Source: Candidatus Rifleibacteriota bacterium
GTDB lineage: Bacteria > Muiribacteriota > Ozemobacteria > Ozemobacterales > Ozemobacteraceae
DNA length: 64,000 nucleotides
Direction: 5' to 3'
Assembly (NCBI GenBank): GCA_012517355.1
Contig: JAAYVD010000134.1
Coordinates: 1 to 64,000, forward strand
The translations under genes and the position numbers were made by a program. The stretch's first letter is position 1. The number at the start of each line of letters is the position of its first letter. The notes beneath the pieces are model-generated. The model did no database searches and was not told where the DNA came from. It saw nothing but the letters and a program-made list of their open reading frames with translations. This document shows positions 22,898-29,420 of the stretch, piece by piece.

Positions 22898-22901
22898 TCC
22901 G

Positions 22902-22980
22902 ACCGACACGAGGTCGGAAGTGCCCCCTTGCCGCCACGGATGGCGGCGCGAAACGCCCGTTTCGCGCATCGCAAGGGGGC
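22902..22980 (+). repeat. Three-hairpin repeat, best copy (first of a pair)
   Basis: Head hairpin CCGAC-ACGAG-GTCGG at 22903-22917. Then an outer stem, CCCCCTTGC (22923-22931) pairing with GCAAGGGGG (22971-22979), encloses two inner hairpins: GCCGCCACGGATGGCGGC (22930-22947) and GCGCGAAACGCCCGTTTCGCGC (22946-22967). The folded form would be a cruciform. Confidence 0.9.
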
Positions 22981-22981
22981 C

Positions 22982-23061
22982 GACCGACACGATGTCGGCC
23001 ATACCCCTTTGCCGCCACGGATGGCGGCGCGAAACATCCGTTTCGCGCATCGCAAGGGGGC
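22982..23061 (+). repeat. Three-hairpin repeat, second of a tandem pair
   Basis: Same order as the copy just before it: head CCGACACGATGTCGG (22984-22998), outer arms ACCCCTTTGC and GCAAGGGGG, inner hairpins GCCGCCACGGATGGCGGC and GCGAAACATCCGTTTCGC. Differences fall mostly in loops, so the stems look conserved. Confidence 0.9.
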
Positions 23062-23517: not shown

Positions 23518-26439
23518 ATGGACCGCACCCGGGAAAACTTCTGGCAACTGACCTTCCTGCTGCTGCTGTCGCTCCTGCCCTTCGGCATCATCTGGGGGGA
23601 CGGGCGGCTGCGGCAGGAGTTTGCGCTGGAGCAGAAACGCCTCGATTGGGAACAGGAGGCGGAGCGTCTGATCGAAGAGATCCGGGCCAACCTGACCCTG
23701 GAGAGCCAGCTGGCCCGGATGGGCCTCCGGCTGGCCCGGCAGTTCGGCCGGATCACCGATCCCTCGTGGCGCCTGACCGCCCCGGAACTTGTGGCCCGGT
23801 TCCGAGCCTGCTTCCCGGCCGCGCACCGGCCGGCTGGGGTCCGGCTGTACGGGTTCGGCCGGGATGCCCGCGGAGGGCTGACCCTGCTATCGGGGCCGGG
23901 CCTGGAGAACAACCTCGGGCAGATGGTGAAGACGGTCTTCACCTGGGTTCTGGCCCCGCCGGCCACCCGGGGCCCGGTCACCGCTTCGCTGACCAAGAAG
24001 TTCCAGGCCATGTTCGGGGACTACGTGCCGCTCGACCTGGTGACCAACCACCGGCGCGGCCAGGCCACTCCCGTCTTCGCCGGGCGGGAGGACGCGCTCC
24101 TGCTGTGGGACCACGTCGAGACCCAGCGCGGGAAGGCGGGCGGCTACCTGGCCATCTTCCCCTTGATGCTGCGGGGTTCCGACATTCCCGCCGCCCATGC
24201 GCTGCGGGAGGCGCGACAGCGGCACCGCGGAATGCTGCCCGTGTTGCTGCCGATGGAGGGGGAACCGGCCAGCCGGGCGGTCATCCTTCCCGACGGCTAC
24301 CGGCCGTCGCGCCGGGCCGCCAGACTGCTGCGGCGGCTGCGCCCGCTCGGGAAGCAGGACCGGGACCGGCTGGCGGAGCCGGGGAACGTCTTCACCATCG
24401 CGGGGAACCACTGGGCCATGCGGCAGTTCCTGGCGCCGGACGTCCCGTTCGAAATCTGGGTCTTTTCGCCCATTCCCCGCACCTGGTGGGAAGGCACCAC
24501 CGCTTCGCTGCTCCTGTGGGGCATGGTCGCGGGAGGGTTCTGGGCCTTTCTCGGAGTGCGGCTGACGGGCTCCGGCGGAGGGTTCTCCCTGTCGATGCGG
24601 CAGTGGGTGATGATCTGCATGGTCTTTTTGGCGGCCCTGGCCCTGGCCATCCTGCGGTTCTCGGCCCTCTACTACGTCGAGACGGCCACCGCCCGGCAGG
24701 TCCATGACCGGGTGGCCAACGCCCTGGCCCGCCTGGAGGGGGTCGACACGGGCGTCACCGCGGTCTTCGACCAGTATGAGCAGGCCTGTGCCCGCCTGGC
24801 CTTCGACCGCCGGTGGGTGATGGACCTCCTGGGAGACGATGCCGCCGTCGCCTCGCGGGCAGCCGCCCTGGCCGAGGCCTTCCTGGCCCGGCAGCGCCCT
24901 CCCATCAGCCTGCGATACGTGGTGCGGTTCCAGGCCCGACAGAACCTGGCCGGCCGCACCTTTCCCCAGGGGGCTGCGGATCCGGTGCAGGGGGCGTCCC
25001 TGCAGTTGTTCTTGCAGCCATTCATGGAAGCGGGGGCCCAGATGGCGGGGTTCCTGCCCCAGGCTTCGGGGGCTGAGAGGAAGGGAAGGGAGGTCATCGA
25101 GCGGATGTTCACCGACCTCATCCGGTTCAGCATGAACGAAGGGGCGTTCCGGATGTTCCTGAACTTCCGGCAACGCGCCGACCTCATGCAGAACGGCGAG
25201 GGGACGTTGCTCCAGTATTACGATTTCCTGGCCCGGGCCGGCCGCCTCCTGGGCGGGGTGGTGTTCCTGGCCGATGCCCCCCAGGCCTACGAGCAGTATC
25301 TGCGGCTGGCGATCCCCCGGATGAGCGCCAGCGACCCCTCCTGGTTCGTCATCGGCCGGCGGCTGCCCACCGGTTGCCAGGTGATCCACCCGCCGGCAGG
25401 TTCCCTGCTCAACAGCCGCGACGGCCAGTTGCTGGAGGAACTGATGCACCTGTCGGCGCTGTCGAACGCCGCCCAGGAGGAGCGGGGGGACGGGGTGGCC
25501 AGGGTGGCGCACACCTGCCGGTTCGCCGACGGCTTCGTCCTGGGGGCCCTGGTTCCCCTGCACGACATCCAGGCCTGGCGGGACCGGCAGTTGCGGCTCC
25601 TGGAGGCGGCCATCGTGGGGTTCCTGGGCCTGGTCTTCCTGCTGAGCCGGGCGACCGCCAACCACCTGCTCGACCCGCTCGGGAAGGTCGAGGAGGGGCT
25701 GCGGCGGGTGGCCGGGGGCGACCTCGACCTGCGGCTCGACCTGCAGCGCCAGGACGAGCTGGGCGACCTGTCGGCAACCTTCGACGGGATGCTGCAGGGG
25801 TTGCGGGAGCGGCGCGACCTCGGCCGGTTCGTGTCGGGAGAGGTGGACGCCCTGGTGGCCCGGGCGGACCTGGGCACCGTGCTGGCCCCGCAGCGGCGGC
25901 TGGGCACGGTGCTGGTTTCGGACCTGCGACAGTTCACCACCCTTTCCGAGACGCACCCCGCCGCCAAGATCGTCGCCATGCTCAACCGCCACCACCAGGA
26001 GATGGTGGAGGCCATCCGCGCCGAAGGCGGGTCGATCGAGCTGTTCATCGGGGACGCGGTGGTGGCGGCCTTCTACGACCACGAGGAAGGGGACGCCCCG
26101 CGCCGGGCGGTCGCCGCGGCCCTGGAGATGCGGCGCCGGCATGCCGGCATCCTGGCCGAGCGGCGGGAGGCGGGACGGTTCGTCTACCAGATGGGCGTGG
26201 GCATCGACCGGGGCGAGGTTCTGGCCGGCACCTTCGGCGAGGCGGGCCGGCTGGAGCACACGCTGCTGGGTCCGCCCCGTCAGCGTGCCGAGCGGCTGGA
26301 GGCGATGTCGAAGAAGGGAAGCCACACCCTGATCGTGGTTTCCCCGGCGGTGGCCCGGCTGTGCCCGGCGACCCCGTTCGCGCCCCTGTCCTCGGAAGCC
26401 CTGGAGGTCGTCGGCCCTGACCCGGAGGTCCGTTCGTGA
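23518..26439 (+). CDS. Membrane class III nucleotide cyclase, C1-like subunit
   Basis: 973 residues from ATG 23518. Membrane helices lie near residues 10-27, 325-345, 362-382 and 695-715; two large extracytoplasmic regions between them look like sensors. A HAMP linker follows the last helix (LDPLGKVEEGLRRVAGGDLD, DELGDLSATF), then a cyclase homology domain at about 790-960. Both metal aspartates are present: Asp802 (VLVSDLRQFT) and Asp846 (FIGDAVVAAF). The base-contacting lysine is replaced by Leu842 and the transition-state asparagine by Gln922 (RQRAERLE), while Thr915 and Arg926 remain. A homodimer should therefore be crippled. The gene overlaps the next cyclase by 4 bases (GTGA), and that protein carries exactly the missing residues. 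Poor ribosome site at this start. Confidence 0.92.
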   Translation: MDRTRENFWQLTFLLLLSLLPFGIIWGDGRLRQEFALEQKRLDWEQEAERLIEEIRANLTLESQLARMGLRLARQFGRITDPSWRLTAPELVARFRACFPAAHRPAGVRLYGFGRDARGGLTLLSGPGLENNLGQMVKTVFTWVLAPPATRGPVTASLTKKFQAMFGDYVPLDLVTNHRRGQATPVFAGREDALLLWDHVETQRGKAGGYLAIFPLMLRGSDIPAAHALREARQRHRGMLPVLLPMEGEPASRAVILPDGYRPSRRAARLLRRLRPLGKQDRDRLAEPGNVFTIAGNHWAMRQFLAPDVPFEIWVFSPIPRTWWEGTTASLLLWGMVAGGFWAFLGVRLTGSGGGFSLSMRQWVMICMVFLAALALAILRFSALYYVETATARQVHDRVANALARLEGVDTGVTAVFDQYEQACARLAFDRRWVMDLLGDDAAVASRAAALAEAFLARQRPPISLRYVVRFQARQNLAGRTFPQGAADPVQGASLQLFLQPFMEAGAQMAGFLPQASGAERKGREVIERMFTDLIRFSMNEGAFRMFLNFRQRADLMQNGEGTLLQYYDFLARAGRLLGGVVFLADAPQAYEQYLRLAIPRMSASDPSWFVIGRRLPTGCQVIHPPAGSLLNSRDGQLLEELMHLSALSNAAQEERGDGVARVAHTCRFADGFVLGALVPLHDIQAWRDRQLRLLEAAIVGFLGLVFLLSRATANHLLDPLGKVEEGLRRVAGGDLDLRLDLQRQDELGDLSATFDGMLQGLRERRDLGRFVSGEVDALVARADLGTVLAPQRRLGTVLVSDLRQFTTLSETHPAAKIVAMLNRHHQEMVEAIRAEGGSIELFIGDAVVAAFYDHEEGDAPRRAVAAALEMRRRHAGILAERREAGRFVYQMGVGIDRGEVLAGTFGEAGRLEHTLLGPPRQRAERLEAMSKKGSHTLIVVSPAVARLCPATPFAPLSSEALEVVGPDPEVRS

Positions 26440-29420
26440 ACGCCGCCTCCTGGTCGAACCGGCTCCTGGCCGCCTTGTTCCTGCTCCTGCCTTTCGGACT
26501 GGGGTTTTCCAACGACCGCCTCGCGCTGGAACTGGCCCGTCGGAAGGCGGAGGGACGGGCCCTGGAAACCGCCCGGCAGATCGCCGACGCCCAGTTCCAC
26601 TCGCAGACGGCGGCCATTCAGGTCAGCCAGGCTCTCGAGCAGTTCCAAGAGCGGGTGCGGCGGATCCTGGACACCTGCCTCGACCGCGACGCCCGTCCCC
26701 GCATCCGGGCCCTCCACCGCCGTCTCCTGCGGCAACGCCTGCCCCGTCACGATCTCGTCGTCTGCCGGTATGACGGCTTCCGGCGTCGGGTGGTGCCCGT
26801 CTTCGGCTATTCCGCCGGCCTCGGGTTGTCCGAATCCCTGGCCGCCCGGTTCCTGACGGGCTGCCTCGAACAGTATCTTCCCCCCCGGGACCTCTGGGAG
26901 GTCCTGGGTCCCCTCCAGAAGATCCTGCACTTCCCGCTGGCCCCGGACATCCGGGACTTCGGAATGCAGGGGCGCGCGGTGGTCATGAACGTCCTCGAGG
27001 GCCGTCGGGGCTTCTACTGGGACCTCACGCCAAGGATCACCTCTGAGCACGACCGTCTCGTCGGCCTGACCGCCTGCGTGCTCGACCTCGAACGGCTGCC
27101 CCGCGACTATCCCCTGCGCCTGCAGATCTCGAACTGGCAGTCGGAGGAATGCGGACTGGGGTTCCTGCGGATCGGCCACCGGGAGGTCGGTCTGTCCAAG
27201 TTCTTTCGCCGGTTCCCGGGCCTGGGGCGGCGATCGCTGTCGGCCCTGGCGGCCCGGCCCGAGCAGGAGGTCACCACCGTCATCGACGGGGTATTGATCC
27301 ATTCCCCGGCCCCAGCGCCCGGCCGGGGCCTTCGCTTCCTGGTGGGGGTCCAGGTGGTCGACCCGGGGCGGGGGTTCCTGGTGACGCAGTATCCCTGGAC
27401 CACTCTCCAGGGGATGATCCTGGCCGGTTTGGCCTTGCTCGTCCTCGTACGGACCCGGGTTTTCGGGGAAACCCTCCGCCTGCCGGTATGGGTCATCCTG
27501 GCCATGGCTTTCCTGCTGGTGGTGTTGGGGCCGGGGGCGGGCGTGCTGGGAGTGGGCCAGACCGCCGCCGCGGAAAAGGAGGACCGGGACCGGCAGGAAA
27601 CCGCCCGGCGCCTGCATTCCCGTCTCATCACCCTCGACCACGTCTTTCTGGGCTTCCAGGCCAGGACCGTCCAGGGGATGAGGCGGGTGGTCAGCCATCC
27701 CCTGGCCCTGGCCTATCTCCAAGCAGATGCCCGCACGCCCGAATCCAACCGGGGGGTCGCCTCCCTTTCCCAGTTGCTGATTACCCTGGCCCCGCACCTG
27801 AAATCCCGCGAAGAGAGGCATCCCTACAGCGGGGTGATCATCTCGGTGGGCTCGGCCGGATTCTGCCGGAGTTGGAACTACGCCGAGATCCTCAGGGAAG
27901 GCGACCCCGCCCAGGGGAACCTGGCCCGCCTGGTGATGCCGTTCGCCCGCAAGGCCTGGGAGAACCTGGAGCGACGGCGCGGGATAGCACAGGCCCCTTC
28001 GGCGGGGGACGAGCGGCTGCAGCTCGGGGCCGTCCGGGACGAGATGATGTTCGACGAACTGCGGCGCATGATGGGCAGCATGTTCGGCAGCGACCTCTAC
28101 ACCCGGCTCCTGTTCTCACCCGAGCAGCAGGTGGAAATGCGGATGAACCTGGGCCGGATGTTCGTCCTCAACACCATCGTCGCGGAAGGCTCCCTGCCCC
28201 GGTTCCTGGTCACCTGGGTCTACGACGAGTTCCTCACCCGCAACGCCTTCATCGAGGGATACATCCGGACGCTGAACCAGGGAGGCGGGGAAGCGGTGTT
28301 CCTCACCAATCTGACCTCCATGGCCGGCACCAGCGTGCCGCCGGGCATCGAAAAGATCCCCCACCTGCATGCCCTGGTGGAACGGTCCCGTTCCGGTCTC
28401 CAGGCCCGGCAGGCCGTCCGGCAGACCCCCGACGGCGACGTTCTCTACGAGACGATGCCGAGCCAGCGCGTCAGCTACACCCTCTTTTCCGGAACCCTGG
28501 CGGCAGGGAACCTGGCCCGCCGGGTCCGACGCCTGTTCCAGGGGGCGGTGGCGGGGGGCTTCGCCGCGGCGGCCGGCCTGGCCCTGGCGGCGGCCCTGTT
28601 CTTCCTGGCCCCCCTCCGACGCATGCTCGAAGCCCTGCAGCGGTTCCGGCCGGGCCAGCCGGCCGAGCCGCTGGCCGACGCCCGCCGGGCCGACGAATTC
28701 GGCACGCTGGCGACGGCCTTCAACTCGATGGTCGAAGGGCTGCGGCAGAAGGATCTGCTGGGACGGTTCGTGTCAGGGACGGTCCGCCGGCTGGTGGCGG
28801 ACGGGGAGTTCCGCGAACGGGCGAAAGCCGGGGAGACCCGGGAGGTCACCATCCTGTTCTCGGGTCTGGCGGGCCTGGAGGAGGAGCAGGGCGGGGCCGA
28901 TCCCGACACGGTGTTCCATTGGCTGGAGCGGCACTGGGCGGTATTGCACCAGGTGGTCGAGGAGGTCGGCGGCGAGATCAACAAGGTCATGGGAGACAAG
29001 ATCCTGGTCGTCTTCGACCACCAGCTTCTGGGCGGGGCCGGACCGGCCGCCACCGCCGCCCTGGAGGTGGCCGGTTCCCTGCATGCCCGGCTGGTGGAGG
29101 GCGGGCTGCCCGCACCCGAGATCGGGATCAACGCCGGGACGGTCATCGCCGGGCTGATGGGCTCCCCCAACTTCCGGCTCGATTACACCGTGATCGGCGA
29201 CACGGTCAACCTGGCCGCCCGGCTGGCCACGCTCGCCCATGCCGCGGGAGGAAGCCGCATCGTGCTGGCGGGCTCGCTGGTGCCGCACCTGCCCCCGGGC
29301 CTGCGGGTGACCCGCCTGCCGTTCACGCGGGTGAAAGGGAAGACCCAGGAGGTCGAGGCCTACCGGCTGGAACTGGACGTCGGCGGGCCGACGGTCGGGG
29401 AGGCCGGCGGCAACAGGTAG
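26436..29420 (+). CDS. Membrane class III nucleotide cyclase, C2-like subunit
   Basis: 994 residues from GTG 26436, with GGAGG upstream and the start overlapping the previous stop. Layout mirrors its neighbour: helix at about 9-25, two more near 325-380, a long extracytoplasmic sensor region, a helix near 705-725, HAMP (LEALQRFRPGQPAEPLADAR) and a C-terminal cyclase domain at about 800-975. The first metal aspartate is replaced by Gly810 (ILFSGLAGLEE); the second, Asp854, is kept (KVMGDKILVVF). Lys850, Thr918, Asn925 and Arg929 (YTVIGDTVNLAARL) are all intact. Lys with Thr is the ATP-type pair of bacterial class IIIb enzymes. Paired with the upstream protein this gives one complete active site and one dead site, as in mammalian adenylyl cyclase. 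The last 61 bases overlap the convergent Sel1 gene. Confidence 0.92.
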   Translation: MNAASWSNRLLAALFLLLPFGLGFSNDRLALELARRKAEGRALETARQIADAQFHSQTAAIQVSQALEQFQERVRRILDTCLDRDARPRIRALHRRLLRQRLPRHDLVVCRYDGFRRRVVPVFGYSAGLGLSESLAARFLTGCLEQYLPPRDLWEVLGPLQKILHFPLAPDIRDFGMQGRAVVMNVLEGRRGFYWDLTPRITSEHDRLVGLTACVLDLERLPRDYPLRLQISNWQSEECGLGFLRIGHREVGLSKFFRRFPGLGRRSLSALAARPEQEVTTVIDGVLIHSPAPAPGRGLRFLVGVQVVDPGRGFLVTQYPWTTLQGMILAGLALLVLVRTRVFGETLRLPVWVILAMAFLLVVLGPGAGVLGVGQTAAAEKEDRDRQETARRLHSRLITLDHVFLGFQARTVQGMRRVVSHPLALAYLQADARTPESNRGVASLSQLLITLAPHLKSREERHPYSGVIISVGSAGFCRSWNYAEILREGDPAQGNLARLVMPFARKAWENLERRRGIAQAPSAGDERLQLGAVRDEMMFDELRRMMGSMFGSDLYTRLLFSPEQQVEMRMNLGRMFVLNTIVAEGSLPRFLVTWVYDEFLTRNAFIEGYIRTLNQGGGEAVFLTNLTSMAGTSVPPGIEKIPHLHALVERSRSGLQARQAVRQTPDGDVLYETMPSQRVSYTLFSGTLAAGNLARRVRRLFQGAVAGGFAAAAGLALAAALFFLAPLRRMLEALQRFRPGQPAEPLADARRADEFGTLATAFNSMVEGLRQKDLLGRFVSGTVRRLVADGEFRERAKAGETREVTILFSGLAGLEEEQGGADPDTVFHWLERHWAVLHQVVEEVGGEINKVMGDKILVVFDHQLLGGAGPAATAALEVAGSLHARLVEGGLPAPEIGINAGTVIAGLMGSPNFRLDYTVIGDTVNLAARLATLAHAAGGSRIVLAGSLVPHLPPGLRVTRLPFTRVKGKTQEVEAYRLELDVGGPTVGEAGGNR

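Follow-up and report, generated by a model that had tools for sequence, protein, structure and literature searches.

Two overlapping genes in a 64,000-nucleotide stretch of DNA from a Candidatus Rifleibacteriota bacterium (the window) each encode a membrane receptor joined to a class III cyclase domain, and each of the two domains has lost residues of the catalytic site. The question that this locus raises is whether the two proteins share one working active site or are cyclases in decay. Class III active sites form between two domains, and the sequence-only reading of the pair had proposed an obligate heterodimer in which one site works and the other is dead. Our comparison with related pairs indicates that the locus very probably encodes a heterodimeric receptor adenylyl cyclase with one live site, which would have arisen by whole-gene duplication and complementary loss.

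The features of the pair are collected in Table 1. A GGAGG motif lies a few nucleotides upstream of the GTG start of the second gene. The C1-type protein is ordered as a transmembrane (TM) segment, an ectodomain, two TM segments, a second ectodomain, a TM segment, HAMP and the class III cyclase domain; either half contains some four hydrophobic segments, a HAMP domain and two regions outside the cytoplasm. Pfam found HAMP and cyclase domains only, and the AAA ATPase of the ADCY10-type layout was absent. The PF00211 (Guanylate_cyc) profile matched both proteins (C1, E 3e-10; C2, E 2e-10), with 40.4 and 40.9 bits against a curated cut-off of 21.9. Among PDB sequence matches, the nearest solved structures were those of bacterial class III cyclases, such as the photoactivated cyclase beta subunit and CyaB, and ADCY10 ranked lower.

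Table 1. Features of the tandem cyclase genes (positions in the window).
Feature	Position	Strand	Details
C1-type subunit gene, 973 aa	23518..26439	+	start ATG; HAMP + class III cyclase
C1 HAMP domain, residues 713-764	25654..25809	+	PF00672 E 5.7e-12
C1-type cyclase domain	25891..26397	+	hexad D-L-D-T-Q-R: D802, L842, D846, T915, Q922, R926
4-nt gene overlap GTGA: C2 start over C1 stop	26436..26439	+	
C2-type subunit gene, 994 aa	26436..29420	+	start GTG; architecture as C1 gene
C2 HAMP domain, residues 722-771	28599..28748	+	PF00672 E 1.8e-8
C2-type cyclase domain	28830..29369	+	hexad G-K-D-T-N-R: G810, K850, D854, T918, N925, R929

The residue calls and numbering of the sequence-only reading were all correct in both proteins. 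C1 has both metal-binding aspartates (D802 and D846), and its base-contacting lysine and transition-state asparagine are replaced by L842 and Q922. C2 has G810 in place of the first metal aspartate and carries K850, T918, N925 and R929. The clean division of residues that had also been claimed stood only in part: the two proteins are complementary, but C1 still retains T915 and R926, and C2 retains the second metal aspartate, D854. The full hexad is found only in the C1 plus C2 composite, and neither homodimer is complete. T918 of C2 places a threonine at the base-contacting aspartate position of the predicted working site, as in class IIIb. A pair from the same genus (L232, DLDTQA/EKDTNR) has the unusual leucine in common with the window C1 and, judged by these residues, is probably the orthologue of the window pair.

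The complementarity was then followed across related tandem pairs, using a profile built from the cyclase domains of the window genome (G000) and reading six positions (first metal Asp, Lys, second metal Asp, Thr/Asp, Asn and Arg). Seventy pairs were scored: 27 from the window genome, 18 from G012, 10 from G007, 6 from G009, 4 from G025, 1 each from G028 and G029, and 3 from loci L065 and L100. The composite of the C1 metal ligands with the C2 Lys, Thr, Asn and Arg was complete in 70/70 pairs, and the reciprocal composite in 0/70; live-site residues were kept at 420/420 positions and dead-site residues at about 117/420. Because C1 or C2 status was assigned by the first metal Asp and by Asn/Arg, the independent evidence within these counts is the second metal Asp in C1 and the Lys and Thr in C2, each present in 70/70 pairs. 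Domains of the C1 type keep both metal aspartates and have lost Asn, Arg or both, and their Lys is often replaced by Arg, Gln or other residues; Asn was kept in 5 of the 70 and Lys in 33. In C2-type domains, the first metal Asp has become Gly, Ala, Ser, His or another residue and the second is often Glu, while Lys, Thr, Asn and Arg are kept. A search of the relatives for pairs with all six residues in both members, a finding that would have spoken against the sequence-only reading, returned 0/70. With the Thr position left out, one C1 and no C2 could form a complete homodimer. The C1 of L171 keeps Lys, Asn and Arg and has Ser for Thr, and the C2 of L168 keeps the first metal Asp. Before filtering there were 84 adjacent domain pairs, and those that did not conform were inter-unit neighbours, pieces of one and the same domain, the two canonical neighbours at L216, and L187, L193 and L061.

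The same pattern was found out of sample, in 24 tandem pairs from four previously unused genomes (G001, G006, G011 and G032). All 24 conformed, with both metal aspartates and loss of Asn or Arg in C1, and with Lys, Asn and Arg in C2; one Thr was replaced by Ser. Lone cyclases, inside and outside the phylum, almost all have all six residues. Chance and alignment artefact were ruled out by the out-of-sample set together with these lone-cyclase controls. Comparison thus strongly supports the earlier claim of a heterodimer in which one site is live and the other dead, with 70/70 scored and 24/24 out-of-sample pairs complementary.

The window genome is a 7.1-Mb assembly (completeness 96%, contamination 1.9%), and its named relatives belong to Candidatus Riflebacteria. 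It encodes 87 PF00211 domains, 57 of which have a same-strand neighbour of this type no more than 5 kb away; in ten genomes from other phyla, 84 domains included 2 adjacent pairs. More than 50 of its domains are of the C1 or C2 type and about 30 are canonical. Matched C1/C2 pairs number about 27 in this genome and about 94 across 13 related genomes. They occur in 7/7 genomes examined from the family to which the window belongs, and in two of a second family, and were not found in the sampled genomes of three other families. Seventy-five non-Riflebacteria loci that best match C2 are, with rare exceptions, single cyclases, nearly all with the full hexad. In a 2022 review, the class III isozymes of a bacterial strain are put at up to 30 (PMC9552081).

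Several loci depart from the simple tandem layout. Arrays are ordered C1-C1-C2 in L031 (G000:C20) and C2-C1-C2-C1 in L100, and tandem fused pairs are present at L166, L171 and L210. An orphan C2-type domain (L059/L178, G000:C112:24846; GKDTNR) lies in an 809-aa ORF with no C1 within the fetched 15 kb. Candidatus Magnetocorallium paracelense, outside the Riflebacteria, has overlapping HAMP-cyclase genes with the hexads DKDTKY/DKTTNR (L220, G065:C73:195500-202500). L186, from Riflebacteria genome G029, is a double-cyclase protein with C1/C2-like split residues, and L219, from candidate division WOR-3, is sAC-like, with two CHDs and AAA_16 (DHDLNA/NKYTNR). From their residues, these three and L181, from another Riflebacteria family, seem to be independent cases of the same solution.

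As for the origin of the two halves, hhalign detected homology between the C1 and C2 receptor portions along 729 columns (E 6e-53, identity 15%), and the best match lay within the module's own type for 122/122 receptor modules. Homology of the full-length receptors, together with own-type best matches, indicates that the duplication took in the whole receptor cyclase and preceded the radiation of the family. The C1 domains are monophyletic, with FastTree support of 0.936 (71 sequences) and, for a reduced set analyzed in IQ-TREE, an SH-aLRT of 84 and an aBayes of 0.983. The clade of C1 plus C2 is supported at 0.937 (90.6/0.98 in the reduced set) and also includes three canonical domains. Monophyly of C2 is weak, with a FastTree support of 0.27, and IQ-TREE placed C2 as paraphyletic. 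Adjoining the C1 clade is L217, a 1,011-aa canonical cyclase of the same genome with all six residues, the same receptor module and HAMP; its sequence suggests a cyclase of the ancestral, homodimeric type.

The distances among C1 domains and among their C2 partners are correlated (Mantel r of 0.66 in the window genome, 0.86 in G012 and 0.73 overall, with 0/5000 permutations as high in each), and therefore the pairs evolve as units. In 26 of the 70 pairs the two halves are fused in one ORF, mostly of about 2,000 to 2,700 aa and always with C1 first; L068 is a fused relative of 1,188 aa. Parsimony placed about 5 changes between the fused and split states on the tree, versus 21 with shuffled labels. 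Split pairs are found in both orders, C1-C2 in 29 and C2-C1 in 15, and in 40 of these 44 the second frame is open before the stop of the first is reached. Nearly all pairs retain the full-length receptor, HAMP and linker in both halves, and both ectodomains diverge fast, in C1 and C2 halves alike. The suggestion that the pair is made as a unit with a receptor on each subunit is strongly supported by the comparison of related pairs.

Only the site built from the C1 metal ligands and the C2 Lys, Thr, Asn and Arg is complete, and for this reason the simplest reading is that C1 and C2 form a heterodimer in which a single site is live. The HAMP-linked cyclase domains of C1 and C2 would pair head to tail, C1 giving the two metal-binding aspartates and C2 the Lys/Thr base reader along with the transition-state Asn and Arg. 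One complete active site converting ATP to cAMP would result, along with one dead pseudo-site. As each subunit has its own 4-TM receptor, the ligand state of either half could shift the HAMP and cyclase interface. Such a system could have arisen when a homodimeric receptor cyclase was duplicated whole and the copies underwent complementary loss; in other family members, the two genes would later have fused, in C1-C2 order, into a single chain. The residues, the tandem pairing, the complementarity, the homology between halves and the fusions can be read from the sequences themselves; physical heterodimerization, catalysis, cAMP as the product and control by ligands are all predictions drawn from the genes. 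Cognate pairing of each C1 with its C2 is likewise suggested by adjacency, coevolution and fusion. The Lys and Thr pair is the base reader of class IIIb adenylyl cyclases, and guanylyl cyclases typically have Glu and Cys at these positions; the presence of Lys and Thr in C2 therefore predicts ATP as the substrate.

The missing residues of the individual domains, along with low PF00211 scores, could also be read as decay, with one or both members drifting as pseudoenzymes or serving only as nucleotide-binding receptors. We regard this as highly improbable, as drift would not spare the six composite-site residues in 70/70 scored and 24/24 out-of-sample pairs and let the six reciprocal positions vary freely; the pseudogene reading was rejected on this invariance. 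It is also quite unlikely that the functional unit is something other than the tandem pair and that its members form asymmetric dimers, homodimers, or dimers with canonical cyclases or members of other pairs. Cross-talk is possible, given the more than 50 C1- or C2-type domains of the genome and its roughly 30 canonical cyclase domains, and the Lys kept by C1 in 33/70 pairs, the C1-C1-C2 array of L031 and the lone C2-type L059 (contig C112) fit such partners. However, homodimers would be without Asn/Arg or without a metal ligand, and the fusion of 26/70 pairs, the overlap of most split pairs and the covariation of C1 and C2 distances all argue for partners encoded side by side.

Within the heterodimer reading, the product could be cGMP or another cyclic nucleotide, and its identity cannot be proved from sequence; yet the class IIIb Lys/Thr base-reading pair, present in C2 in 70/70 cases, makes this quite unlikely. 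The signaling logic is a different matter. A true heterodimer that is not an AND-gate, in which one half is constitutive or serves as a tether, or in which the receptors act additively or antagonistically, is rather probable: gate logic is not readable from the genes, and the ectodomains of both halves diverge fast. Against this, both halves keep the full receptor, HAMP and linker in nearly all pairs, so that neither looks vestigial. Two receptors acting on one active site would fit several logics, of which the AND-gate of the sequence-only reading is one possibility; obligate pairing is likewise possible.

The heterodimeric cyclase proposed here resembles several known systems, and its arrangement is otherwise familiar chiefly from animal cyclases. 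Duplication and fusion of the tmAC has been placed in an early eukaryote, and bacterial class III adenylyl cyclases have been described as homodimers (PMC9552081). Like the bacterial pair, mammalian ADCY1-9 have two homologous membrane and cyclase halves, metal aspartates in C1 and Lys, Asn and Arg in C2, and one live and one dead site, and the fused bacterial members share their C1-C2 order. They differ in having a 6-TM cassette per half, whereas the bacterial halves have about 4 TM segments, two ectodomains and HAMP each, and in having Asp where the bacterial pair has the class IIIb Thr; the window pair is moreover encoded by split genes. Of the tmAC-type features, the residue split with one degenerate site and the origin of the halves from a whole receptor-cyclase duplication are found, while the single polypeptide (two overlapping genes here) and the 6-TM cassette are lacking in the window pair. 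ADCY10 and bacterial sAC-like double-CHD proteins share the C1/C2 residue split and the class IIIb Thr, but have no membrane receptor or HAMP, their CHDs are directly adjacent, and an AAA ATPase lies downstream.

The sGC alpha/beta pair is alike in its separate genes, its heterodimer and its lack of a complete homodimer, and its homodimers are inactive because key residues are distributed between the subunits (PMC3591389); it differs in its GTP specificity, its haem/NO sensor and its occurrence in animals. In chytrid NeoR/RGC, two different receptors likewise combine into one enzyme (PMC8815786), but the cyclase domains of RGC1 and RGC2 keep all catalytic residues, so that a different cause must underlie their obligate pairing. 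The homodimeric receptor cyclases of bacteria, among them Rv1625c/Cya and canonical HAMP cyclases, share the fold, the class III residues and the receptor-cyclase logic, but they carry the six residues in one chain and form two equivalent sites.

We found no report of bacterial C1/C2-type receptor cyclases or of Riflebacteria cyclases in the open-access literature. Eukaryotes have class III pseudoheterodimers (tmAC, sAC and sGC), and the bacterial receptor version, hugely expanded and with its intermediates preserved, appears to be new. Its catalytic division is the same as in eukaryotes, but on comparison of the sequences it appears to have an independent bacterial origin, different receptors and a very large expansion. 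It is likely that we are looking at an independent bacterial tmAC design, with dozens of C1/C2 pairs per cell that would each join two extracellular inputs at one site, and with homodimer, split and fused stages in one genome. The putative ancestor type, the split pairs and the fused pairs, side by side, make it possible to probe directly what favors complementary decay towards a single live site, and the system allows one to ask whether a dead site turns regulatory and whether two receptors compute a joint signal.

On the input side, the ectodomains matched no named family in Pfam or NCBIfam. The AlphaFold model of the C1 receptor module is of low confidence (mean pLDDT of 56.6), and Foldseek searches with it gave a single PDB match that reached significance, a weak one to a chemoreceptor model, and weak dCache matches. 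On the output side, the window genome has 24 cyclic-nucleotide-binding domains. Those at L145-L156 are fused, among other partners, to a MinD/ParA-like ATPase with TPR, to GGDEF, to MCP signaling domains, to an MscS-like channel and to a PilB/T2SSE ATPase. The number and variety of these domains provide a broad set of possible readers, and, given these fusions, chemotaxis, pili, c-di-GMP and cell organization may be under cAMP control.

Upstream of the pair, at positions 22899-23060 of the window, a palindromic element of 81 nt, with the stem GCGCGAAACG..CGTTTCGCGC, occurs twice in tandem. Its 24-nt core has 257 matches in the genome (with 2 or fewer mismatches) versus 0 for the reversed control, and some of the matches are spaced exactly 81 nt apart. 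Eleven copies lie inside open cyclase frames of the window genome (L032, L033, L037, L043, L044, L045, L049, L050, L051 and L054), in both orientations and several frames, without introducing stops, and in fused proteins some of them fall in the stretch that separates C1 from the second cyclase domain. The element, which we take to be reminiscent of the Rickettsia palindromic elements, may have lengthened the cyclase genes.
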